From NCBI GenBank assembly GCA_903906315.1, contig CAIVJW010000204.1:1-62243 (forward strand): a DNA stretch of 62,243 bases. The letters are read 5' to 3'. A program made the position numbers and the translations under genes. Each line of letters opens with the position of its first letter. Positions within the stretch are counted from its first letter, which is position 1. Source of the stretch: an uncultured delta proteobacterium. GTDB taxonomy: Bacteria > Myxococcota_A > Polyangia > Polyangiales > Polyangiaceae. Of the stretch, positions 4,391 through 39,133 are shown piece after piece. A model generated the notes under the pieces. The model was given only the letters and a program-made list of their open reading frames with translations, made no database searches and was not told the origin of the DNA.

Positions 4391-4969
4391 TCAGCGGACG
4401 GGCGGGGAGAACGTCCGAGCGGGGCCGGGGGCGAGATCGACCACCACGCCGCGGAACTCGACCTCGCCGGTCTTCTCCGCGTGCATGGGGATCTTCGCCT
4501 TGCCGTAGAGCGTGCTCGGCTTGCCGGGGGCGGGGACGCTCGCGGCGCAGAGCGTGAGGTCGGAGCCCCACGGCACGAACACCTCGATGAAGAAGCGCCC
4601 GTTCGTGGTGCCGCCGTTGCCGACCACCTTGCCGTCGCCGAGGCAGTCCCCGACGGCGACGAAGGTCTGCGGCGCGGCGGCGCCGTCGAGCTTGCGCGGC
4701 GCCTTCACCGTGCCGCCGATCTCCACCTCGCAGATGCGCGCCGGGGCGACGCCGCCGTCGGCCGCGGGGCCCGACGGCGGAGCGACCGACGCGCCCGTCG
4801 TCGGGGCGGGCGTGCGGATCGCGGCGGAGGCTCCCGTCGTCGGCGCGGGCGCCGCGGCCGCAGAGGCCGTAGGCGCCGCGCTCGACGCGGGCGCGGGCGG
4901 CGCCGCCGGGTCGCACCCGAGCGGCGCCGCGATCGCGATCGCGAGGAGGGCCCTCGACGAACGGCTCAC
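4391..4969 (-). CDS. Small lipoprotein coupled to the Cys-rich repeat protein
   Basis: A 192-residue predicted lipoprotein. It starts at a GTG that overlaps the upstream stop codon in the tetranucleotide GTGA (4966-4969), so translation is probably coupled. The signal peptide MSRSSRALLAIAIAAPLGC ends in a lipobox with Cys19. It is followed by a long Ala/Pro/Thr-rich linker in which a short APTTGAS-type stretch occurs twice, then a compact domain with two Cys residues (CEVEIGG, then VAVGDCLGDG) and beta-strand-like sequence. I do not recognise the domain. Co-translation with the large surface protein upstream suggests a shared role at the cell surface. Confidence 0.7.
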   Translation of the reverse strand: MSRSSRALLAIAIAAPLGCDPAAPPAPASSAAPTASAAAAPAPTTGASAAIRTPAPTTGASVAPPSGPAADGGVAPARICEVEIGGTVKAPRKLDGAAAPQTFVAVGDCLGDGKVVGNGGTTNGRFFIEVFVPWGSDLTLCAASVPAPGKPSTLYGKAKIPMHAEKTGEVEFRGVVVDLAPGPARTFSPPVR

Positions 4970-7900
4970 GGGCAGGAGTAGGCGACCGACACGCTGCCGA
5001 GCGTCGGCTTGTTCTGCGTGTCGCTCGTCGCGATGACGAACTCGACCTGCAGCGTGCTCGGGTCGGTACCCGGCGGCAGCGCGATCGCGACCGGCTTCGG
5101 GATCGCGGGCGGCTCGATGCCGACCGTGACGAACGGCGCGGCGGCGAGCGACGCGACGTCCTTGGCGGCGCGGTAACGGACCTGCAGCGTCGTGCCGACG
5201 GGCACCGTGTCGGTCCAGCTGAGCTCGCCCCACGTCGCCTTGCTGCCGCAGAACGCGGTGAAGTTCTTGTGGTAGCTGCCGGTCGTGGGCGCCGTGAGCG
5301 CGAGCTGCGAACCGGAGAGGTCCGAGTACACGTACGGCGTGGCGCCCGTGCGGACCGACGTGACCGCGTAGTTGTTCGCGACGTCGACGCGGTAGAGCGA
5401 TCCCTGGGGCCCGTTCACCGCGGCGAGGTTGGTCGTCTCGGTGTTGACGAAGTACGGCACGGCGTTGCCGTCGATGGCGGTGCCGAGGATGTAGTTGTTC
5501 GCGTTGTTGCCGGTGTTCGAGGCCATCGGGATGGCCTTCTTCAGGGTCATCCCCTGCCCGACCGGCTTCGACGCGTCGACGTGGAAGCCGCCGTAGCAGG
5601 TGTCCGGCACCCACAGGTTGTAGGCGGCGTCGAGCGACGGGCCGCGCGGGAAGCAGGCCCCCGGGAGCGTGAGCGACTCCCACACCGGGTTCGCCGCCGA
5701 GGGGTCCATGCGGGCCACGCAGGTGCCGCCGGCCGAGTAGATGTAGCCGCGCACGTCGGCGGTGATCGCGTAGGCGCACGGCGCCGCGGTCCCGACGAAC
5801 GCCGCGGGGAGCGCGGCCTGGTTCGTGTCGACCTTGATGATCTTGCTGGTGGCCGCGTCGCGGATCCAGAGGAACCCGAAGCGGTCGAAGACCGACGAGT
5901 ACGGCATCCCGGGCAGGGCGACCTGCTTGACGATCTGGCCGCTCTGCGCGTTGATCTGGACGAGCTCGCTCGTGCCGTAGAGGCCGACGTAGAAGTTGCT
6001 CGAGAGCGACCCGTCCGGCGCCGACTTCGAGTCGAACGTCGCGGAGCGCGGCAGCGTGCCGGCGCCGGCGACCATGTTGCCGTTGCGATCGCGGTTGAGC
6101 GGCGTCCACCAGAGCACGCACTCGTCGGGGCTGACGGTCGTGTTGGCCGGCCAGACGAACGGAGCCGACACGGCGCCTGCGCCGACCATCGTGTCGATCT
6201 TGCCGTTGCCGTTGCGATCGACGCAGCGCGACAGGTCGCCCGCGATCATGACCGCGGACGCGCGCTCGGCGTGCAGCGCCCCGGCGTAGAAGTAGTTCGC
6301 GCGGTTCGCGATGCCGACGTTGCCATCGAGGCTGACGCTGGTGCGCGACGGATCGGCCGCGCAGCCGGGCGCGGTGCAATAGCGCGCGACCTCCTTGAAG
6401 GTCACGGGGTCGATCTTCGACACCGTGCCGTCGCCGCTGTTCGCCACGTACACGTAGCGGGCGATCGCCAGCAGGCTCGTCTGACGGTCGACCGTCGCGG
6501 CGCCGTTCGGATCGAGCACGATGAGCTTCGATCCGTCGCCCTTCGGGTCGAGGGGCGGGTTGCCCGCGCCGCCGACCGAGACGGTCGCGCCATGCCCGCA
6601 CGCGCCCTGATCGCAGGCGCCGTTCCAGCAGTCGGCGCCCTGCTTGCAGCCGAGCGCGGGGCCGCAGCTCGGGCAGAGGCCGCCGCAGTCGACGTCCGTC
6701 TCATTGCCATTCTTCACGCCGTCCTTGCACGACGGGACCTGGCACTCGCTGTTGACGCAGATGCCGCTGTCGCAGTCCGCACCCTTCTTGCAGCCGAGCG
6801 CCGTGGCGCAGGGCGGACACGCCGGGCCGCCGCAGTCGACGTCCGTCTCGCCGCCGTTGTCGATGCCATCGAGGCACGAGGGCGCGGTGCAGACGCTCCC
6901 GTCGCACGCGCCGTCGAGGCAGTCGCCGCCGACGCTGCAGACCTTGCCGACGGCGCACGGCGCGCACGTCGAGCCGCCGCAGTCGACGTCCGTCTCGGCG
7001 CCGTTCTTGATGCCGTCGCCGCAGCCCGGCGGGACGCACAGGTTGTTGAAGCAGAGACCGCTGGAGCAGTCGCCGCCGAGCTGGCAGACCTTGCCATCGC
7101 CGCACGCGGGGCACGTCGGGCCGCCGCAGTCGACGTCGCTCTCCTTGCCGTTCTTCACGCCGTCGCCGCAGGTTGCCGGCGCGCACGATCCGCCCGTGCA
7201 GCGCAGGCTCTGACAGTCCGAGTCGAGGCCGCAGGCCTTGCCGTCGTCGCACGCGAGGCAAGCGCCCCCGCCGCAGTCGACGTCCGTCTCGGCGCCGTTC
7301 TTCTGCGCGTCGCCGCAGCCGGCCCCGACGCACACGTTGTTGAAGCAGAGCGCGCTCTTGCAGTCACCCGCCTTGGCGCAGGCCTTGCCGAGATCGCACG
7401 CGCCGCACGGACCGCCGCAGTCGACGTCGCTCTCGCCGCCGTTCTGGAGCGAGTCGCTGCACGACGCCTCGGCGCACTTGCCGGCCACGCAGGCGCCGCT
7501 CACGCAGTCGCCGTCCGCGCCGCACCCCTTGCCGGTGCCGCAGTCCCCGCAGGCACCGCCGCAGTCGACGTCGCTCTCGTCGCCGTTCTTCATGCCGTCG
7601 ACGCAGCTCGCCTCCGCGCACTTGCCGTCGACGCACGGCCCGGCCGCGCAGTCCGACGACGTCGCGCAGGTGCCGCCGGTCGGGCACTTCGGACACTCGG
7701 CCCCGCCGCAATCGACGCCGGTCTCGGAGCCGTTCTTGGCTTTGTCGTCGCACGCCGCGGCCTGGCACGTGCCGCCGGTGCACACGCCGCTCGCGCAATC
7801 GGCGGCCGCTTTGCAGCCGCCTCCGTCCTTGCACGGGCCGCACACCTTGCCGCCGCAGTCGACGCCGGTCTCGTCGCCGTCCTTCTTCCCGTCGAGGCAC

Positions 7901-8187: not shown

Positions 8188-8438
8188 GCTGATGCTCCTT
8201 CACCCGGCCGGGCGGGCCGTCCCGCTCGCGGGAGGCAGCACGCCGGCAGGTTCAGCCGAGCACGCTCGTCGCGCCGCGACGCGGAATCAATCGGCGCCAG
8301 CGCGCCGATCGCAACGGAGCTCGGACGAGGGCGTTCGCAAGCACGAAACGCAGCCGGAAGCGCGGCCGATCGCCGCAATCACCGCGAGCTCGCCACGCCT
8401 TGAAGGGCGTACGGTCGGAGCTGCACGGGAGCCGGCGG

Positions 8439-8511
8439 TGCCCAGGGACGGAATCGAACCGCCGACACGAGGATTTTCAATCCTCTGCTCTACCAACTGA
8501 GCTACCTGGGC
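8439..8511 (-). tRNA. tRNA-Phe (anticodon GAA)
   Basis: The minus strand folds as a full cloverleaf. The acceptor stem is GCCCAGG/CCTGGGC. The D arm is GCTC..GAGC, the anticodon stem GAGGA/TCCTC with loop TTGAAAA, and the T arm GGCGG-TTCGATT-CCGTC. The anticodon GAA decodes Phe. The discriminator base is A, and the terminal CCA is not encoded (ACCG follows). Arms and invariant loop bases are intact. Confidence 0.97.
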
Positions 8512-8542
8512 CTGTCGCGAAAGCCGCGTCAGTGGGGCCGGA

Positions 8543-8570
8543 ACGTTACGCGGCGGCGCGGACTTGTCAA
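8543..8570 (-). promoter_or_regulatory. Sigma-70-type promoter of tRNA-Phe
   Basis: On the minus strand TTGACA (8570-8565) is followed by a 16-base spacer and TAACGT (8548-8543). Transcription would begin about 25 bases before the mature tRNA end at 8511. The -35 hexamer matches consensus exactly, which is unusual in such GC-rich DNA. Confidence 0.65.
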
Positions 8571-8700
8571 GCACGACGGCACGTCCCTTTCGCACGGTCC
8601 CGGTCTCGACTGCGGTGGCAGGCCCTGCGCGCGTGGCGTCCTCGACCGCCCGGCGCGTCGTCCGGGCGTTCCCGCGCGCCGTCGCGGGCCTCGCAGCACG

Positions 8701-28565: not shown

Positions 28566-29567
28566 TCATTCGTCCTTGTCCCAATCGTCTCGGCCACGGG
28601 GGTCCCAGGTGACGCGGGTATTGCGGCGCCCGCCGGGAGGCCCATCGCCGTCGTGACCGGCAGGCCCGCCGGCGCCGCGGCGCTTGCGCCCCTCGTCAAA
28701 CGTGCGCCTCTGCGCCGGAGGCGGTGCAGGCGCGCCGTAGCCACCGCCGCCGCCCCCCGCAGGGGCTCCGCCTCCACCGCCGCCACCGCCGCCTCCGACG
28801 TAGCCTCCGCCTCCGCCGCCGCCGCCGCCGGCGTAGCCACCGCCGCCACCGCCACCGGCGTAGCCCCCGGGGCGCTCACCCGCAGGACGCTCGCCCTTCG
28901 GGTGCGCGAGGTTCACGACCAGCCTGCGACCGCGGACGTCCGCGCCGCGGAGCGCGTCGATCGCGCCCTTGGCCGCGTCGGCGCTCGCCATCGTGACGAA
29001 GCCGAAGCCGCGCTTGCGACCGTCGGCGTCCATCGGGAGATGCACGCGCACGACCGGCCCTGCCGCCGTGGCGCCGATGATGGCCTCGACCTCTTCGATG
29101 GTGGCGTCGTAGGGGAGATTGCCCACGTAGAGCGTCCGGTCGGGCGCGCCGGCCATGCCACCCAGCTGGGGACCAACCCCCATGCCCGGGCCGCCCATGC
29201 CCATGCCCGGGCCGCCCATGCCCATGCCCATGCCCGGGCCCATGCCCGGACCACCGACGCCACCGGGGCCCGGAGGGCCGCCGGGGCCACGCACCTCGCG
29301 GCGCGGCGGCTCGGCCTGGAAGGGCCGCACGGAGATCGACTTGCCGCCCTGGAACGAACCATCGAGCGACTCGCGCGCGGCGTTCGCCTCCTCGGTGGTC
29401 GCCAGCGTGACGAAGCCGAAGCCGCGAGGCCGGCCGGTCGCCCGATCCTTCGGGAGGCTCACCTCGACGACGGCACCGCCCGTCGCCTCGAAGAGCTGTC
29501 GGAGAACGTCTTCGGTGATCGAGTCGGGCAGCCCCGCCACGAACAACTTCCGGGAATCTTCAGCCAT
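28566..29567 (-). CDS. RNA-binding protein with two RRM domains and Gly-rich tail
   Basis: A 333-residue protein. RRM1 (about 6-82) has RNP2 as KLFVAGLP and RNP1 as RGFGFVTL. RRM2 (about 146-222) has RNP2 as TLYVGNLP and RNP1 as RGFGFVTM. A Gly/Pro/Met linker with repeats such as GPGMGMG joins them. The tail is almost pure Gly runs with Tyr (GYAGGGGGGGY) and ends in basic residues. The start at 29567 gives MAEDSRKLFVAGLP. A CCGCGA/TCGCGG hairpin (29601-29617) sits in the leader. Bacterial RRM proteins usually have one RRM and respond to cold; the Gly-rich tail recalls condensate-forming proteins. Target RNAs unknown. Confidence 0.9.
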   Translation of the reverse strand: MAEDSRKLFVAGLPDSITEDVLRQLFEATGGAVVEVSLPKDRATGRPRGFGFVTLATTEEANAARESLDGSFQGGKSISVRPFQAEPPRREVRGPGGPPGPGGVGGPGMGPGMGMGMGGPGMGMGGPGMGVGPQLGGMAGAPDRTLYVGNLPYDATIEEVEAIIGATAAGPVVRVHLPMDADGRKRGFGFVTMASADAAKGAIDALRGADVRGRRLVVNLAHPKGERPAGERPGGYAGGGGGGGYAGGGGGGGGGYVGGGGGGGGGGAPAGGGGGGYGAPAPPPAQRRTFDEGRKRRGAGGPAGHDGDGPPGGRRNTRVTWDPRGRDDWDKDE

Positions 29568-30123
29568 CGAAAACCCTGCACATCCTATTGATCGACGTCG
29601 CCGCGACTCGCTCGCGGCCTCTTGATTGTGGGAAGCGGACCCGCCCTTCGTGGTCCGTGGAGCCGAAGGGCATGCGCGCACGAGGCCGGGCGAACCCGGG
29701 GGCCTGCACGAGCATACCTCACGATATCTGGCCCACTTCCGGCGTCAAGTGAGCCTTGGGTCGCGTGGCGGCTGGACGCTTCGGCCGCGAGCCGGCGAAC
29801 GGTCGATCTCGTACACCGCCGGCGAGGCGAGGAGCCACCGAAGCGGGTGGGCTTCCCCGTACACGCGAGGTCGTAGCGCGACGGGCAAGGAGGTATGAAC
29901 CCGATGGCCGAGCCTTTCAGCCGCGAGCGCGTCACGGGGACGTTCGGGAGGGTCGACCTCTCGGACACCGCCTGGGCGGAGTGATTCGGCGTCTTCACGA
30001 AGCCGTCAGTGAAGCACGACCTCCTCCGCGCGCCGCGGGACCGGCTCCCGTGGAAGCGAGACGGGTCGCGCCTCGAGGCGCGCCCGACGTCGGAGCTGCC
30101 GGCGGCGCAGGCGCCTCGAGCGG
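29568..30123. other. 556-base region without a confident gene
   Basis: Between the RRM protein start and the lgt stop I find no frame with convincing coding character, although several stay open by GC bias. It holds the RRM leader with a small hairpin at 29601-29617, a somewhat AT-richer patch around 29710-29760, and a 26-29 codon frame at 29895-29984 preceded by a perfect AAGGAGG (listed separately). Confidence 0.5.
29895..29984 (+). CDS. Possible short ORF with perfect Shine-Dalgarno
   Basis: AAGGAGG at 29887-29893 is one base before an ATG at 29895 and ten bases before an in-frame ATG at 29904; the second is better placed. The frame reads MAEPFSRERVTGTFGRVDLS, then DTAWAE and TGA at 29982-29984. 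I know no family that matches. It may be a small protein, a leader peptide or chance. Confidence 0.2.
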   Translation: MNPMAEPFSRERVTGTFGRVDLSDTAWAE

Positions 30124-31128: not shown

Positions 31129-31662
31129 GTGAGCAGCCGCCCTACGACCCCCATCCGCCTCGCGACCCTCACGCTGAGCGACACGCGGACGGTGGCGGAC
31201 GACGCGAGCGGCCGCGTCCTCGGAGAGCTGTGTGCGGAGGCGGGCTTCGAGGTCGCTTCGCACGAGGTCGTCCGCGAGGAGCCCGAGCTCCTGCGCGCCA
31301 CGGTGGAGCGCCTGCTCGCGGAGCCCGGGATCGACGCGATCATCCTGACGGGCGGAACCGGCATCTCGCCGCGCGATCGCACGATCGAGGCCCTCGCGCC
31401 GATGTTCGAGAAGACCGTGGACGGCTTCGGCGAGGCGTTCCGCAGGCTGAGCTGGGAGGAGATCGGCGCGCGCGCGGTCCTCTCGCGGGCGACGATGGGC
31501 ATCGCGCGCGGGCGGATCGTGGTGGCGCTCCCCGGGAGCCCGCCGGCCGTACGGCTCGGCGTCACGCAGCTGCTCGCGCCCATGCTCGCGCACGCGGTCG
31601 GGATCGCTTCGGGGCGCGCGACGAAGCATGAGCACGGCCACCGCGGAGGGGCGCGGGGATGA
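31129..31662 (+). CDS. moaB: Molybdenum cofactor protein MoaB/MogA
   Basis: A 177-residue MoaB/MogA-type protein that adenylates molybdopterin before metal insertion. Motifs are ATLTLSDTRTVADDASG at the N-terminus, AIILTGGTGISPRDRTIEAL in the centre and VALPGSPPAVRLGV near the end. The start is a GTG at 31129. Its stop overlaps the moeA start (ATGA), so the two sequential enzymes are made together. Confidence 0.9.
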   Translation: MSSRPTTPIRLATLTLSDTRTVADDASGRVLGELCAEAGFEVASHEVVREEPELLRATVERLLAEPGIDAIILTGGTGISPRDRTIEALAPMFEKTVDGFGEAFRRLSWEEIGARAVLSRATMGIARGRIVVALPGSPPAVRLGVTQLLAPMLAHAVGIASGRATKHEHGHRGGARG

Positions 31663-32861
31663 TCTCCTTCGACGAGGCCCTCGAGCGGCTCCTCGCGAGC
31701 GCGCGGCCGCTCGGCGCGGAGCGCGTCGCGATCGACGAGGCGGCCGGGCGCGTGCTCGCGGAAGACGTGGTCGCGGGTGCGGCGATCCCGGCGTTCGATC
31801 ACTCCGCGATGGACGGGTACGCGGTCGCGACGGCCACGCTCACCGGCGACGGGCCGTGGCGAGTCCCGGTGATCGGCGAGAGCGCGGCGGGCGCGGGCGC
31901 GGCGCGGATCGAGCCCGGGAGCGCGTGCCGGATCTTCACGGGCGCGCGCGTTCCCGAGGGCGCCGACGCGGTCGTGATGCAGGAGGACGCGCCGCGCACG
32001 GACGACACGATCGCGCTCGCCGCGCGCCCACGGTCGGGCCAGCACATCCGTCGACGCGGGGAGGATCTCGCCGCGGGCGGGCTCGCGATCGCGCGCGGCG
32101 TGCGGCTCGGGCCGGGCGGGGTCGCGCTCGCCGCGGGCCTCGACCGCGCGTTCCTCCGCGTCGGGCGGCGCCCCGTCGTGAGCATCCTGTGCACCGGCGA
32201 CGAGCTGCGGTCACCGGGCGACCCGGCGCGCCCCGACAGCATCCCCGAGACCAACGGCTTCTTCGTCGCGGCCGCGGCGCGCGCAGCCGGGGCCCACGCG
32301 CGCGTGGCGCCGTTCGTGGCGGACCGGGCCGAGGCCGCCGAGGCCGCCGTGCGCGAGGCGCTGCGAGGCGCCGACCTCGTGGTCACGATCGGCGGGGTGA
32401 GCGTCGGCGACCACGACGTCGTGCGGCCCGCGCTCGAGGCCGCCGGCGTGACGCTCGATTTCTGGCGCGTGGCCATGAAGCCAGGCAAGCCGCTCGCGGT
32501 CGGGCACGCGGGCGCGACCCACGTGCTCGGGCTCCCCGGAAACCCGGCGTCCGCCTCGCTCACGTTCCTGCTCTTCGGCGTGCCGCTCCTGCGCGCGCTC
32601 CAGGGGGACGCAGCGCCCCTGCCCTCGCGCGTGCCCGTGCGCATCGCCGGCGCGATCCGGCGCAAGCCGGGCCGCCAGGAGTTCGCGCGCGCGCGGATCG
32701 AGCTCCGCGGCGGCGAGCTCACGGCCGTGCTCGCGCAGAACCAGTCCTCGGGCGCGGTGACCAGCTTCGCGTGGGCCGATGCGCTCGTGGTCGTGCCCGC
32801 GGACCGCGAGCGCGTCGACGACGGCGATCGGCTGACGGCGATCCGGATCGGCGAGATCTAG
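31659..32861 (+). CDS. moeA: Molybdopterin molybdenumtransferase MoeA
   Basis: A 400-residue MoeA, which inserts molybdate into adenylated molybdopterin. Motifs: PAFDHSAMDGYAVAT near residues 46-60, the catalytic domain with STOP-type residues VSILCTGDELRSPG, IGGVSVGDHDVV, and KPGKPLAVGHAG followed by LGLPGNPASASLTF. The C-terminal domain IV is complete (QNQSSGAVTSFAWADALVVV). It follows moaB by ATGA overlap. Its TAG stop lies in the same CTAG as the stop of the convergent moaE. Confidence 0.95.
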   Translation: MISFDEALERLLASARPLGAERVAIDEAAGRVLAEDVVAGAAIPAFDHSAMDGYAVATATLTGDGPWRVPVIGESAAGAGAARIEPGSACRIFTGARVPEGADAVVMQEDAPRTDDTIALAARPRSGQHIRRRGEDLAAGGLAIARGVRLGPGGVALAAGLDRAFLRVGRRPVVSILCTGDELRSPGDPARPDSIPETNGFFVAAAARAAGAHARVAPFVADRAEAAEAAVREALRGADLVVTIGGVSVGDHDVVRPALEAAGVTLDFWRVAMKPGKPLAVGHAGATHVLGLPGNPASASLTFLLFGVPLLRALQGDAAPLPSRVPVRIAGAIRRKPGRQEFARARIELRGGELTAVLAQNQSSGAVTSFAWADALVVVPADRERVDDGDRLTAIRIGEI

Positions 32862-33349
32862 CGGGCGTCACCGCTCGGGTCGTGGCGGTGGTCCTCGTGG
32901 GGCGCGCCCGCGTGATCGCCGCCGCCGCAGCGCGCGTCCTGCCAACCGACCCAGTACGGACCGTCGGGGCCGTGCTCGCGCTTCCAGATCGGCAGGCGCG
33001 ACTTGAGCCGATCGATGAGCTCACGACAGGCGTGGAACGCCTCGGATCGGTGCGGCGCGCTCGCGGCGCAGACGACGGCGGCGTCGCCGACGCGGAGCGT
33101 GCCGACGCGATGGAGCACGGCGAGGCGGACGCCCGGCACCTCGACCGAGAGCTCGTCGATCAGGTGCGCGAGCTCGGTCTCGGCCATCGAGCCGTACGCC
33201 TCGTACTCGAGGAGCGTGACGGCGCGACCTTCGTTCTCGGCCCGAACGACGCCGAGAAACGTGACGACGCCGCCGGCCCCGTCGTGGCTCACCTCACGCA
33301 CGACCTCGTCGAGCGAGACCGCCGCGGCCCGGATGCGCGGGGCGGTCAC
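32858..33349 (-). CDS. moaE: Molybdopterin synthase large subunit MoaE
   Basis: A 163-residue MoaE. The domain begins [20 protein letters not shown] and carries [40 protein letters not shown] and the catalytic Lys region [13 protein letters not shown] with PYWVGW. Both active lysines appear present. The GTG start overlaps the moaC stop in GTGA. The tail is His/Asp-rich ([17 protein letters not shown]), perhaps metal-binding. No moaD gene, whose product supplies the sulphur, is seen nearby and it must be elsewhere. Confidence 0.93.
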
Positions 33350-34278
33350 CCGCCCTCCGTCGATCGCACGAAGCGGCCCGATCGCCCGCCGTCCTTCTCG
33401 AGCAGCTTCACATCCTCGATCACCATCGCGCGGTCGATCGACTTGAGCATGTCGTAGATCGTCAAGCAGGCGGCGCTCACGGCGACGAGCGCCTCCATCT
33501 CGACGCCCGTGCGATCGCGCGCCTCGGTCGTGGCGGTCACGCGCACGCGGCTCTCCTCGGGCTCGATCGAGAGCTCCACGGCCACGCGGGTGAGCGCGAC
33601 CGCGTGGCATAGAGGGATGAGGTCCGGCGTGCGCTTGGCGGCCATGATCCCCGCGAGCCGTGCCGTCGCGAGCACGTCGCCCTTCGGGGTGTCGCTCCGA
33701 GCCAGGCGCTCCGCGGTCGCGCGATCCATGCGCACCACCCCCGAGGCGACGGCGCGCCGCTCGGTGACCGCCTTGGCCCCGACGTCGACCATGTGGACCG
33801 CCCCGCGCGCGTCGAGGTGCGTCGAGAGCGCCGCGGCCGCACGCGCGGTGACGATCCCGTCGTACGCCTCGCCGAGGTGCGCGGCGTCCGCGCGCTCGAT
33901 CGCGCGCCGGTGGACGTGCAGGAGCGCGAACCGGTCGAGCGCGGAGAGCGCGGCCCACGTCGCGTCCGCGAGCGGTCGCCGCGCGCCGAGCGCCTCGCGA
34001 AGCGCGGGCGGAGGCGCCCCCGCGGGCGCGTCCTCGGCGCGATCGGTCGGCGTGGCGGGCGGCGAGGCGGCGAGCGCGGACTCCGCGATGGCGACGAGGT
34101 CCACGGCGTCGCACGCGCCCGCACGGGCGATCGCGGTGCGCGCCTCCAGCGGAAGCGATCGCCAAGCGGCGAGCGAGAGCCTCATGCCGGCGTGATCGAG
34201 ACCACGACGCGCCGCGAGCGGGACGAGGTCGAGCGTCGGAGGGATGCCCTCGAAGGCGTAGACGGGTAGATCGATCAC
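33346..34278 (-). CDS. moaC: MoaC fused to an N-terminal nitrate-reductase-associated-like domain
   Basis: A 310-residue fusion. Residues 158-310 are a complete MoaC, cyclic pyranopterin monophosphate synthase. It starts [18 protein letters not shown] and has K215 (IMAAKRTPD), H225 (IPLCHAVAL), the E260/E262 region (GVEMEAL) and D276/K279 (TIYDMLKS). Residues 1-130 read [40 protein letters not shown] and, after an Ala/Pro insert, [18 protein letters not shown]. That pattern matches the small nitrate reductase-associated family. Such a fusion is unusual: normal MoaC is about 160 residues. It follows moaA by 55 bases and overlaps moaE. Confidence 0.85.
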
Positions 34279-34333: not shown

Positions 34334-35374
34334 TCACCCTCCGCGCTTGTGCATCTCGAGGTGCGGGATGCGGCGCAGCGCGGACGCGGGCAGCAGCGGT
34401 CCGCGATCGAGGACGGCGAGGCGATCCTCCGCGCCGCGGTCGGTCCGGCCGCGCCACGCGGTCGCGATGGCAGCCGCGAGGACCTCGGTGGACGCCCCCT
34501 CGCGGACGAACCGCCGGAGGTCGGCGCCGGTGCGAGCGTACAGGCACATGTAGAACATGCCGTCGGCGGTGAGCCGCGCGCGGTCGCAGCTGCCGCAGAA
34601 CGGCTCCGTCGTCGAGGCGATGACGCCGAAGGCCGTCCCGTCCGGGAGCGTGAAGCGAGCCGCCGTCGATGAGCCGCGATCGCCTGCGACCGGCTCGATG
34701 GGCCCGAACGCGCGGGCGAGCGAGGCGAGGATCTCCTGCGACGACACGACGTCCGCGGCCGACCAGCCCGTCGCGCCGCCGACGTCCATGTACTCGATGA
34801 AGCGCAGCTCCGCGCCGCGATCGCGGGCGAACGCGAGCAGCGCGGCGAGCTCGTCGTCGTTCCGGCCGCGGAGCACGACGGCGTCGAGCTTGAGCGCCGC
34901 GAAGCCAGCGCGCACGGCGGCGTCGATGCCCGCGATCACGTCCGCGTGGGCGGCGCTGCCGGTGAGCTGGCGGAATACGTCGGGGCGGAGCGTGTCGAGG
35001 CTCACGGTGACGCGGTGCAGACCCGCGGCGAGGAGCGCGCTCGCCTGATCGGCCAGGAGGAGACCGTTCGTCGTCAGCGCGAGGTCGCGCAGGAACGGCC
35101 TTCCCGCGAGCATGCGCACCAACGCCGGCAGATCGCGACGGAGGAGCGGCTCGCCGCCGGTGATGCGGACACGACCGACGCCGAGGAGACCGAATGCGTC
35201 GACGAGCCGGGTGATCTCCTCGAATCGCAGCAGATCCTCGCGCGGCAGCCAGACGTAGCTCTCCTCCGGCATGCAGTAGGAGCAGCGCAGGTTGCAGCGG
35301 TCCAGCACCGAGAGCCGGACGGCGTCGAGCGGCCGCCCGAAGTGATCGCGCACACGCTCGAGGCTACCGGCCAT
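34334..35374 (-). CDS. moaA: GTP 3',8-cyclase MoaA (radical SAM)
   Basis: A 346-residue radical SAM enzyme that turns GTP into the cyclic precursor for MoaC. The N-terminal cluster motif is CNLRCSYCMP, the SAM site ITGGEPLLRRD, and the C-terminal cluster is CGSCDRARLTADGMFYMC. The protein ends in the conserved Gly-Gly (HKRGG) needed for activity. The ATG at 35374 is preferred; one at 35398 adds eight residues. It is the first gene of the moaA-moaC-moaE run. Confidence 0.95.
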   Translation of the reverse strand: MAGSLERVRDHFGRPLDAVRLSVLDRCNLRCSYCMPEESYVWLPREDLLRFEEITRLVDAFGLLGVGRVRITGGEPLLRRDLPALVRMLAGRPFLRDLALTTNGLLLADQASALLAAGLHRVTVSLDTLRPDVFRQLTGSAAHADVIAGIDAAVRAGFAALKLDAVVLRGRNDDELAALLAFARDRGAELRFIEYMDVGGATGWSAADVVSSQEILASLARAFGPIEPVAGDRGSSTAARFTLPDGTAFGVIASTTEPFCGSCDRARLTADGMFYMCLYARTGADLRRFVREGASTEVLAAAIATAWRGRTDRGAEDRLAVLDRGPLLPASALRRIPHLEMHKRGG

Positions 35375-35638
35375 CGCTCGCTCCAACCGAGGGAACACGC
35401 GCCCCCGTCGACGCGCGTTGGCATCGGACCGCCGCGGGTCGGGGGAGGACTGCGCACGCTCGAATCGGGGGAAATACGACGCGAACGACCCTCGCGCGCG
35501 CCTCCCCGCCGCGACGAGCGCTCGGTCCGGTGCCCACGAGCCACGAGTCGAGCTGGCCGCTACCGACCGCTGTCATGCGCGGCGAACGTAACACCACACG
35601 GCGGCCTCCTCCGCGCTATAGTCGACGCGCTGCACGTC

Positions 35639-38600
35639 ATGAGCGAAGACGCCATCAGCCCGGGGACGGTGCTCGCAGCGCGCTATCAGGTCCGGCGCGA
35701 GCTCGGCCGGGGCGGCATGGGGATCGTGTACCTGTGCCGCGACCTGGTGGCCGACGAGCGCGTCGCGCTCAAGCTCCTCTGCCGCCCCGGGTCGAGCGTG
35801 CGACCCGAGGACGCCTGGTGGTTCCACGAGGAGGCGCGCGCGCTCGCGGGCCTCTCGCACCCGGTGATCGTGCGCGCCCGCGACTTCGGCGCGCTCCCCG
35901 ACGGGACGCCGTACCTCGTGATGGATGCCGTGCCGGGGCGGTCTCTGCACGAGTGGATCTACCTGCAGCACATCGACGGCGTCCTCCCCTGGCCGGTCCT
36001 GTGGAGCCTCTTCGATCAGGTGCTCGGGTCGCTCGCGCACGCGCACGCGCGGGGCGTGATCCACGGCGACCTCAAGCCGTCGAACGTCCTGCTCGAGGTC
36101 CTCGAGGGCGACGCCGAGCCGACGGTGCACGTGCTCGATCTGGGCCTCGCGTGGCTGTTCCAGGATCGCGTCGACCACCGGCTCGACGGGCGCGCCGCGC
36201 TCGAGCCCACGGTGCGCTGGGGCGCGGGGACGCCGGGCTGGATGGCCCCGGAGCAGATCCGCCTCGCCACGCCGCACATCGGGCCCGCGACCGACCTCTA
36301 CGCGCTCGGCTGCATCCTGTTCGCGATGCTGGCGGACCGCGAGCCGTACGCCGGCTCGAGCGAGGAGCTCCTCTCCGCGCACCGAAACGCGCCCATCCCT
36401 GCCCCGGAGCCGCTACAGCCCGGCGTGCCGAAGGGCGTCGCGCCGTTCGTGCAGCGGCTGCTCGCGAAGCGCCCGTGGCACAGGTTCGAGTTCGCGGGCG
36501 ACGCGCGCCGCGTGTGGCGCACCTTCCGGCCCGCGGAGGGCAAGGGCGACGTCACGAGCACGCCGATCCCGCGCGGCGGCGGGGTGCGGGGCCCGCTGCC
36601 GTCGAGCCACGACTCGACGCTGCGGCTCGACCCGGATCTGTTCCGCGCGGAGTCGAGCGTCGCGACCACGACCGGGCTGCTCGGCATGCGCCCGAGCCCC
36701 TTCGTCGCGCGGCAGGCGGAGCGCGCGCGGCTGCTATCGCTCGTCGCCGAGGCCGCGGCCAGCACCGACCCGGTGCGCAAGCTCATCGTCTTGCGCGGCG
36801 AGGCCGGCGTCGGCAAGAGCCGCATCGCCGAGTGGCTCTGCGAGGAGGTCCACGAGCGCGCGGCCATGGTGCCGCTGCGGGCGCGCTACCGGAAGATCGC
36901 GGCGCCGCTCGACGGGGTCGTCGGCGCCGTGACGCAGCACTACCGGCTCGAGCGCGCCGACAAGGCGGTCGTCGAAAAGGTGCTGATGAACCTGTGGGGC
37001 GTGGGCCCCGAGGACGACGACGGCACGACGTGGGTGGCCGCCGCAGCGGAGTGGCTGAAGCCCGGCGGCGACGCGATAGGCCCGACGGGCAAGCGGTTCA
37101 CGTTCGACCGGCCGGAGCTGCGGTGGCGCGTGATCCGGCGCACGCTCGAGCACATCTCGAAGCACCGCCCGATCCTGCTCTGGATGGACGATCTTCACCT
37201 CGCGTCGCCGACGACGTTCGAGGGCCTGCGGATGCTGCAGCGCGAGGCGACGAACCTTCGCATGGTGGTGGTCGCGACGGCGCGCGACGAGGCGGTCGAG
37301 ACCGACCCGCAAGCGTCCGCGATGCTGGACGACATCCTGCGCGCGTACGGCGGCGAGGTGATGCGCGTCGCGCCGCTCGACGAGAGCCAGACGTTCGCGC
37401 TCCTGCGCGAGACGCTCCCGCTCGACGACGCCGCCGCGGCCGAGGCCGCCTCGCGCGCCAAGGGCAACCCGCTGTTCGCGCTGCAGCTGCTCTATGCGTG
37501 GGCGCAAGGCGGGCACTTCCAGCTGAAGGAAGGGCGCTACGTCGTGCCACGCGCGGCGCTGGAGGTCCGCGCGGCGACGACGGCCGAGCTGTGGCAGGAG
37601 CGGCTCGCCGCGATCCCGGCGCCGCTGCGTGGGGCCGCGCTCGCTGCGGCGGCGCTCGGCGGCGACATCCGGACGGACGTGCTGCGCGCCGAGCTCGGCG
37701 AGCTCGGCATCGACCCGGAGCGGGCGATCGTCGCGATGAAGCGCGCGCAGATCCTCCTCGCCTCGGGCGCCGAGCGGCTGCGCTGGCCGCACGCGCTCCT
37801 GCAGGAGCACCTGCTCGCGCAGCTCTTCGAGCAGCCGGAGTCGGCGCGCTTCTTCCGCGCGGCCGCCGAGGCGCTGGCGCACCACCCGCTCGCGTCGAGT
37901 CGGCGCATCGTGCGGCACCGCGTGACCAACCTCGTCCGCGCGGGCGACCTCGATCGGGCGTCGGAGCTACTGCACGGGTCCATCGCGTCGTTCTGGGGCC
38001 GCACGCGCGATGCGTCGGCGACGGCACGCGACCTCGCGCTGCTCGACGGCAAGCTCGGCGGGACCGCCTCGGCCGTCCACCGCCGGTGGCGCGCGGAGGC
38101 GATGCGTCACACCGGCAAGCTCGAGGACGCGCGGCGCGAGGCCGAGCAGGCGAGCGCGATCTTCGCCGCGGCCGACGACCTCGAGAACGAGGCGCACTGC
38201 CTGCGCCTGCTCGGCCACATCGCGTCGGACCTCGCGGCGCCTGCGCGCGGGCGGCGCCTCGTCGCGCGCGCGCTCGGCTACTTCGAGGAGCTCGGGCACG
38301 CGCACGGCCGCGCGCAGTGCGAGCTCGTGATGGGCGAGATCGACTACCTCGTCGGGGAGCACACCTCGGCGCGGTCACTCCTGGCTAGCGCGGCGCTGCG
38401 CTTCCAGCACGTCGGCGACCGGCTGGGACGCGCCCAGTGCCTGATCCTGCAGTCGCTCGTCGAGCAGGCCGGAGGCGCGCCGCACCGTGCGCGCGACCTC
38501 GCGCTGACCGCGCGCGCGGACTTCGACGGCATCGGCTACCGGCTCGGCGTCGCGCAGAGCGACGTGATCCTCGCCCACGCGGATCACCGCGAGGGCACGC

Positions 38601-39133
38601 TCGAGGCGGCGCTGCATGGCGCGACGGCCGCGCGACAGAGCTTCCGCGACCTCGCCAATCCGCGCGGTGAGGCCGCGGCGGAGCGCCTGCTCGCGATGGC
38701 GAGCCTCGACGCCGGCGACGCGGACCGGGCCGAGGAGCACGCGCGCGCGGCCTGCTCGATCTTCGAGCGGCTCGCCGACCCGTGGGGACAGGTCGAGTCG
38801 AAGCTCCTCCTCGCGCAGGTCGCGCTCGATCGCGGCGACGCCGACGCGGCGCGCGAGCAGCTCATCGCGTGCGAGGCGGCGAGCCTGGTGGAGGCCGAGC
38901 CGAAGCAGCACCGGCACCTCACGCTGGCCTGGCTCGCGTACCACGAGGGCCGCTTCGGCGACGCGGCGCGCGAGCTCGACCAGGCGCGAGGCGCCTTCCG
39001 CGAGGGCGCGCGGACGGCCGACCACGCGCCCCAGCTGCTCGAGCGGTTCCTGCGCATGAGGTGGCCGCGGCCTGCCGGGCCACGCATCGCGGACTGGCTG
39101 CGGGCCATCGCGGCCGCCAGCGCGCCCGGCTGA
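35639..39133 (+). CDS. Ser/Thr kinase-AAA ATPase-TPR signalling protein (atypical kinase)
   Basis: A 1164-residue soluble protein. Residues 12-290 are a protein kinase: Gly loop GRGGMG 23-28, K45, catalytic loop HGDLKPSN 142-149, DLG 167-169 and APE 203-205. The Arg of HRD is Gly and DFG is DLG, so it is a non-RD kinase; Lys and Asp residues are intact. Residues 355-700 are an STAND-like ATPase with Walker A GEAGVGKS 387-394 and Walker B ILLWMDDLHLAS. The C-terminal half is TPR-like helices. The layout resembles PknK/TOMM-type kinases. A stop-proximal hairpin follows. Inputs and targets are unknown. Confidence 0.88.
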   Translation: MSEDAISPGTVLAARYQVRRELGRGGMGIVYLCRDLVADERVALKLLCRPGSSVRPEDAWWFHEEARALAGLSHPVIVRARDFGALPDGTPYLVMDAVPGRSLHEWIYLQHIDGVLPWPVLWSLFDQVLGSLAHAHARGVIHGDLKPSNVLLEVLEGDAEPTVHVLDLGLAWLFQDRVDHRLDGRAALEPTVRWGAGTPGWMAPEQIRLATPHIGPATDLYALGCILFAMLADREPYAGSSEELLSAHRNAPIPAPEPLQPGVPKGVAPFVQRLLAKRPWHRFEFAGDARRVWRTFRPAEGKGDVTSTPIPRGGGVRGPLPSSHDSTLRLDPDLFRAESSVATTTGLLGMRPSPFVARQAERARLLSLVAEAAASTDPVRKLIVLRGEAGVGKSRIAEWLCEEVHERAAMVPLRARYRKIAAPLDGVVGAVTQHYRLERADKAVVEKVLMNLWGVGPEDDDGTTWVAAAAEWLKPGGDAIGPTGKRFTFDRPELRWRVIRRTLEHISKHRPILLWMDDLHLASPTTFEGLRMLQREATNLRMVVVATARDEAVETDPQASAMLDDILRAYGGEVMRVAPLDESQTFALLRETLPLDDAAAAEAASRAKGNPLFALQLLYAWAQGGHFQLKEGRYVVPRAALEVRAATTAELWQERLAAIPAPLRGAALAAAALGGDIRTDVLRAELGELGIDPERAIVAMKRAQILLASGAERLRWPHALLQEHLLAQLFEQPESARFFRAAAEALAHHPLASSRRIVRHRVTNLVRAGDLDRASELLHGSIASFWGRTRDASATARDLALLDGKLGGTASAVHRRWRAEAMRHTGKLEDARREAEQASAIFAAADDLENEAHCLRLLGHIASDLAAPARGRRLVARALGYFEELGHAHGRAQCELVMGEIDYLVGEHTSARSLLASAALRFQHVGDRLGRAQCLILQSLVEQAGGAPHRARDLALTARADFDGIGYRLGVAQSDVILAHADHREGTLEAALHGATAARQSFRDLANPRGEAAAERLLAMASLDAGDADRAEEHARAACSIFERLADPWGQVESKLLLAQVALDRGDADAAREQLIACEAASLVEAEPKQHRHLTLAWLAYHEGRFGDAARELDQARGAFREGARTADHAPQLLERFLRMRWPRPAGPRIADWLRAIAAASAPG

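Follow-up and report, generated by a model that had tools for sequence, protein, structure and literature searches.

The window, the whole stretch of 62,243 nucleotides that was analysed from an uncultured delta proteobacterium of the family Polyangiaceae, carries a group of molybdenum cofactor (Moco) genes that includes a fusion gene at 33346..34278 on the minus strand. This gene, with a GTG start and a TGA stop, encodes a protein of 310 residues in which a NarM-like head (PF09655) precedes a MoaC domain. On the same strand, moaA (GTP 3',8-cyclase; 34334..35398) lies 55 bases upstream of the fusion gene and scores 350.5 bits on TIGR02666 (cut-off 284). The moaE gene follows (32858..33349, minus strand), and its likely GTG start overlaps the TGA stop of the fusion gene (GTGA); a GGAGG just upstream could be read from the sequence, and the two together are as expected for coupled translation. 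On the plus strand, Pfam and NCBIfam searches placed a mogA/moaB-like gene (31129..31662) beside moeA (31659..32861), which converges on moaE. A large Ser/Thr kinase and AAA ATPase protein adjoins the Moco genes both in the window (34946-39133, plus strand) and at one locus of a relative (L034:2106-6365, minus strand). Elsewhere in the window (28566-29681, minus strand) a bacterial protein combines two RRM RNA-recognition motifs with a Gly-rich tail (PF00076, 115 bits in two stretches).

Profile searches bore out the first-pass annotation, which had described MoaC fused to a domain like those associated with nitrate reductase and had proposed a check of the N-terminal part against PF09655. In the complete protein, PF09655 matches residues 15-129 (33892..34236, minus strand) significantly, scoring 35.7 bits (gathering cut-off 25; E 1.4e-8); residues 1-149 searched alone reach 38.6 bits, and PF09655 is their sole Pfam match up to E 10. 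The MoaC domain spans residues 153-303 (33370..33822, minus strand), where PF01967 matches residues 163-298 with 185 bits (E 6.7e-55) and TIGR00581 gives 195.5 bits, above its equivalog cut-off of 141.5. Residues 130-152 (33823..33891, minus strand) comprise the end of the last helix of the head and a linker, with pLDDT below 50 at residues 147-155. A structure prediction of the full chain, also proposed in that annotation, has a pLDDT of 83 and consists of a helical head, the linker (of low confidence) and a MoaC half. In this monomer model the MoaC half superimposes on E. coli MoaC (4pyd_C) with a deviation of 1.0 A across 153 columns and a TM score of 0.96 by target length (Foldseek). The catalytic residues, already reported as kept, are all present: K199, H225, D276 and K279 align with K51, H77, D128 and K131 of E. 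coli MoaC at an offset of 148. The C-terminal half is thus predicted to be an ordinary cPMP synthase (MoaC), which shares its fold, its catalytic residues and a family score over the TIGR00581 cut-off with the E. coli enzyme (4pyd/1ekr), whereas the latter lacks the linker and the helical N-terminal addition of about 130 residues. Known fusions in NCBIfam likewise join MoaC to a Moco-related part, namely MoaC/MoaB (PRK03604), MoaC/MobA (PRK14500) and MoaC/MOSC (PRK14499), but the window protein stays under the cut-offs of these models, and among the seven NCBIfam models listed for it there is no combination of MoaC with a NarM-type domain. PF09655 and MoaC each matched once in its own genome (an 8.79 Mb draft in 455 contigs, 98.55% complete), in both cases within the fusion gene.

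It is extremely improbable that no fusion protein is made, with translation starting inside the gene and the head being read-through or annotation noise. The GTG at residue 1 is preceded by none of six Shine-Dalgarno-like motifs, as an internal start would allow. However, the start near residue 155 that the first-pass annotation had weighed against the fusion was not found: between residues 60 and 162 there is no ATG, GTG or TTG in frame and a single CTG, at residue 120. The ATG at residue 163 also has none of the six motifs in the preceding 20 bases, and starting there would lose the conserved STHL..G stretch of MoaC. Head and MoaC also share one frame in 42 genomes. In 15 pairs drawn from six species of one related genus (g17), pN/pS was 0.11-0.47 for the head and 0.03-0.10 for MoaC; within this genus the head is under purifying selection and evolves as a protein does, at a higher rate than MoaC. 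For the head, pairs from four other genera gave ratios of 0.29-0.75, often with many synonymous changes. Comparison of the window with its six nearest fused relatives gave 0.57-0.85, and this last range is little informative.

By its profile scores the head is a divergent relative of NarM. Because it reaches 40 bits on TIGR02664 ('nitrate reductase maturation protein NarM'), far under the cut-off of 110, it is not NarM by the rule of that model. The Pfam score nevertheless identifies the same domain, and the near-invariant P20, R24, L27, W39, L42 and R47 are common to fused and unfused heads. Across 71 heads, P20, R24, L27, D28, G31, W39, L42, R47, W108, L111 and R116 are each kept in 61-69. 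When the two halves of the head alignment were compared with each other by HHalign, they matched with a probability of 92% (E 5e-7 over 37 columns), and the PF09655 domain is an internal repeat, with two copies of a motif of about 38 residues containing W..L....R. The model of the head alone is all-helical (mean pLDDT 85.9, pTM 0.81), although it was built from only 3 sequences. Fold searches with this model gave no match, whether by Foldseek in the PDB (best E 3.6), by VIA-align (best Z of 2.1, for 54 residues) or in a viral library (best E 2.8), although these results do not show a new fold. By sequence, no PDB chain matched the 135-residue head up to E 1. The spacer between positions equivalent to window residues 125 and 154 measures 17-36 residues in 39 of the 42 fused rows and 103-170 in the other three, and is Pro-rich when long. 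Such a variable, sometimes long Pro-rich spacer would fit a tether better than a fixed channel.

PF09655 was found in 82 of the 289 genomes of the class, among them five genomes of another family, and in 37 of 377 genomes of a phylum-wide draw, all within the order of the window. We examined 82 loci in the 81 other PF09655 genomes (G266 has two; in G139, whose match is split, the second piece was not treated apart). At 41 of these loci the head and a MoaC part found by BLAST stand in one open frame, so the survey of relatives suggested in the first-pass annotation gives 42 fused genomes with the window's own included, 41 of them in its family and one (G239) in another family of the order (f6). 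All four catalytic residues are kept in 40 of the 42, and moaE is adjacent to, or in frame with, the fusion at 35 of 41 fused loci. Seven genomes of the family (genera g23 and g31) have an unfused head, the four from g31 with an unfused MoaC elsewhere, and the locus of G258 is interrupted by a contig end. A head HMM was built from 71 heads (the 82 loci plus the window, with 12 too-short rows dropped and the strand picked by a motif score devised for this analysis). It found heads in only two of 80 named contig loci, those of Byssovorax sp. (L033) and a Polyangiaceae bacterium (L034); the other 78 showed MoaC without a head in the DNA examined. MoaC was matched in every one of the 82 PF09655-positive genomes and in 163 of the 207 negative ones (Fisher p 2e-7), in a test that ignores kinship and in which about half of the positive rows are fused by construction and six fused MoaC parts are degenerate. 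Moco synthesis as such does not depend on the head, since 27 of the 89 family genomes have MoaC without a PF09655 match. A MoaC tree of 60 rows (the window, 39 fused and 20 unfused, with degenerate G068 and G271 dropped) requires six changes between the fused and unfused states, at least two of them forced by starred branches, although it was made by a quick method and 33 of its 57 forks are weak. The tree is compatible with a single origin of the fusion followed by later losses, which it neither shows nor excludes.

In two groups of relatives the head persists on a MoaC-like part from which catalytic residues are missing. In G068 and G271, P and Y replace K199 and H225. In four further genomes of the family (G013, G191, G236 and G250) the head is followed by a part too degenerate for BLAST, with MoaC scores of 31.6, 26.8, 26.9 and 22.6 bits (Pfam threshold 27) and PF09655 scores of 24.2, 23.1, 24.7 and 20.9 bits (threshold 25), respectively. 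These four lack K199, H225 and K279 and retain D276, and three of them end, as judged by eye, in a hydrophobic helix. The six degenerate fusions (L161, L165, L159, L168, L162 and L167 in G013, G191, G236, G250, G068 and G271, respectively) are possible pseudoenzymes, and the hydrophobic helix is perhaps membrane-spanning. The persistence of the pair without normal catalysis is what would be expected if the head regulates or stabilises MoaC, as a sensor or an oligomerisation aid, and has no partner in Moco delivery. We regard such a role as distinctly unlikely, however, as it leaves unexplained the fusions of the same head to MoaE and MobA-like enzymes and the separate head genes beside mobA-like genes that are described below.

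NarM is taken as a nitrate reductase maturation chaperone in cyanobacteria, and in Synechococcus, where narM and mobA are neighbours, narM is reportedly needed for nitrate reductase activity. The family is found near Moco genes, as is the head in the window. In picocyanobacteria, narM and narB occur at nearly the same frequency (in 119 and 118 of 132 genomes, respectively; PMC9361551), and narM is tabulated together with narB (PMC13366656). These counts, the family name and the descriptions in Pfam and NCBIfam all favour a head that is a dedicated nitrate reductase maturation chaperone, joined to MoaC to make the supply of cofactor follow that one enzyme. Within the class, NasC occurs in at least 24 of the 82 PF09655 genomes and at least 20 of the 207 others (p 9e-5; both counts are lower bounds and the statistic ignores kinship). 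Among the 42 fused genomes we found NasC-type enzymes in at least 13 (650 bits or more, a line drawn by eye where the scores drop from 655.7 to 552.1 bits, with none at the 1100-bit cut-off), NapA in eight (599 bits or more, all under the cut-off of 930) and NarG over its cut-off in seven, so that at least 23 have one or another of the three. NapA scores near 310 bits on the NasC model, and NapA and NarG were searched separately. In two genomes (G168 and G278) a head lies no more than 2 kb from napA (894 and 900 bits; cut-off 904), and both genomes also have NasC.

On the other hand, the genome of the window itself argues against this role. All candidates at its four PF00384 places were scored with NCBIfam models, and they comprise a formate dehydrogenase alpha subunit (G000:C251, about 24.3-26.2 kb; L170:4776-6701; 638 bits, cut-off 666), a PhsA-like enzyme (467 bits, cut-off 694), an FdhA-like protein of 644 residues (206 bits) and NuoG (348 bits, cut-off 470). 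Neither these four scans nor the NapA and NarG searches detected a nitrate reductase in this 98.55% complete draft. The formate dehydrogenase gene has an in-frame TGA within CNRTUHAPS, suggesting selenocysteine. In total, NasC (at 650 bits or more), NapA and NarG were all unfound in 19 of the 42 fused genomes, the window's own included, where the NasC count covers up to three candidates per genome and absences are soft outside the window's own genome. Four of the 19 (G185, G271, G276 and G281) are less than 90% complete, and the check covered NasC, NapA and NarG alone among the nitrate reductases.

Formate dehydrogenase also appears in G130 (L173:2485-8688), where an unfused NarM-type gene (about 8236-8688, minus strand) precedes same-strand formate dehydrogenase genes at a distance of some 0.8 kb; the crude gene caller drew an open reading frame across the gap, and we do not claim a single operon. 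The enzyme gene near this head was considered as a nitrate reductase and rejected, as it scores 947 bits as FdhA (cut-off 666); the scan of that formate dehydrogenase group covered this gene alone. The domain and nitrate reductase are therefore associated, yet the fusion seems able to occur without such an enzyme, and we consider a chaperone dedicated to nitrate reductase rather unlikely. The suggestion in the first-pass annotation that the fusion would couple early cofactor synthesis to the accessory protein of a single molybdoenzyme is weakened. It agrees with the 23 fused genomes that have NasC, NapA or NarG, but not with the 19 in which these were unfound or with the unfused heads near formate dehydrogenase or mobA-like genes. 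Molydop_binding matches are more numerous where the fusion is intact, with a median of 4 in such family genomes (n=39) against 2 in MoaC-positive genomes without a head (n=27; p 2e-5), in a comparison that includes NuoG-like matches and leaves out G239 and the degenerate fusions. By genus means per Mb the excess has a p of 0.02, and it may follow lifestyle or kinship.

The domain has other partners as well. Pfam searches identified a head joined to both MoaC and MoaE (L126 in G209), a head joined to MoaE in a genome that also has a head-MoaC fusion (L028 in G266), a head followed by a MobA-like transferase (L019 in G183) and the reverse order, with a MobA-like domain followed by a head (L163 in G155). 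Similar fusions were recognised by BLAST or frame reading with MoaE (L139 and L140) and with MobA-like enzymes (L020 and L153). Unfused heads lie beside a mobA-like gene on the same strand in five genomes (G247, G220, G144, G233 and G259), as found with mobA-like query genes that scored 60 and 70 bits, under the curated cut-offs. Several other unfused heads, including those of G267, G270, G173, G150 and G198, had no gene of our small panel within the 3.4-15 kb examined. In one genome of family f5 (L164 in G248; 4803-5666, minus strand) a MazG-like domain (27.7 bits, cut-off 27) precedes PF09655, and a mobA-like gene converges on this fusion. Fusions of this one domain to MoaC, to MoaE and to a MobA-like enzyme in different genomes favour the alternative raised in the first-pass annotation, in which the associated family has a role in cofactor synthesis.

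MoaC, MoaE and MobA all handle pyranopterins, and the head could accordingly be a carrier that binds the pterin intermediate or the finished cofactor and passes or protects it, without docking proteins. The residues R24, W39, R47, W108 and R116, which are kept in 64-69 of the 71 heads, could hold an anionic pterin. Nevertheless, the fusion partners act on different intermediates, three genomes have long flexible spacers, and the model of the head has no fold match to any ligand-binding protein, which is weak evidence. We therefore think it improbable, to about the same degree as for the nitrate reductase chaperone, that the head is such a carrier.

The reading that we prefer, to which we give a probability of about 0.45, is that the head is a docking module of molybdenum cofactor assembly that would hold MoaC near later Moco enzymes, near apo-oxidoreductases, or both. 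We prefer docking, in the assembly of Moco and in its delivery, because the fusion partners share a pathway and not a substrate, because the neighbouring genes that were found are mobA-like or encode enzymes taking bis-MGD, and because the fused genomes carry more Molydop_binding matches. The gene at 33346-34278 (minus strand) would produce one bifunctional chain, whose MoaC half, the only copy found in the genome, would have to supply every molybdoenzyme. Its NarM-type head would be a small helical docking module and not an enzyme, and could hold MoaC near MobA and MoaE and/or near the apo-oxidoreductases that take bis-MGD, such as the formate dehydrogenase of this genome. As MoaC is a hexamer, up to six heads might be displayed around one MoaC core. 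In other genomes the same head is attached to MoaE or a MobA-like enzyme, or remains a separate protein encoded beside mobA-like genes or near those of molybdoenzymes. The docking mechanism, the identity of the partners and the hexameric display are all inferred.

A broader proposal, which we put forward more tentatively and which may well prove wrong, is that PF09655/NarM is a general mobile adaptor that different lineages have placed on MoaC, MoaE or MobA to form a Moco metabolon handing cofactor to bis-MGD oxidoreductases. On this view the label 'nitrate reductase-associated' would reflect a local perspective, from cyanobacteria, and in G013, G191, G236 and G250 the protein could have become a pure, partly membrane-bound scaffold. 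In the literature searched, mostly outside subscription journals, we found no paper on the fusion or on the function of PF09655. The fusion of one domain to three enzymes of one pathway provides a 'Rosetta stone' argument for a role in Moco synthesis or delivery, and caution is warranted in inferring nitrate reduction from the presence of a PF09655 domain. Overall, the alternative partners in related genomes suggest that the domain serves molybdenum cofactor assembly in general.
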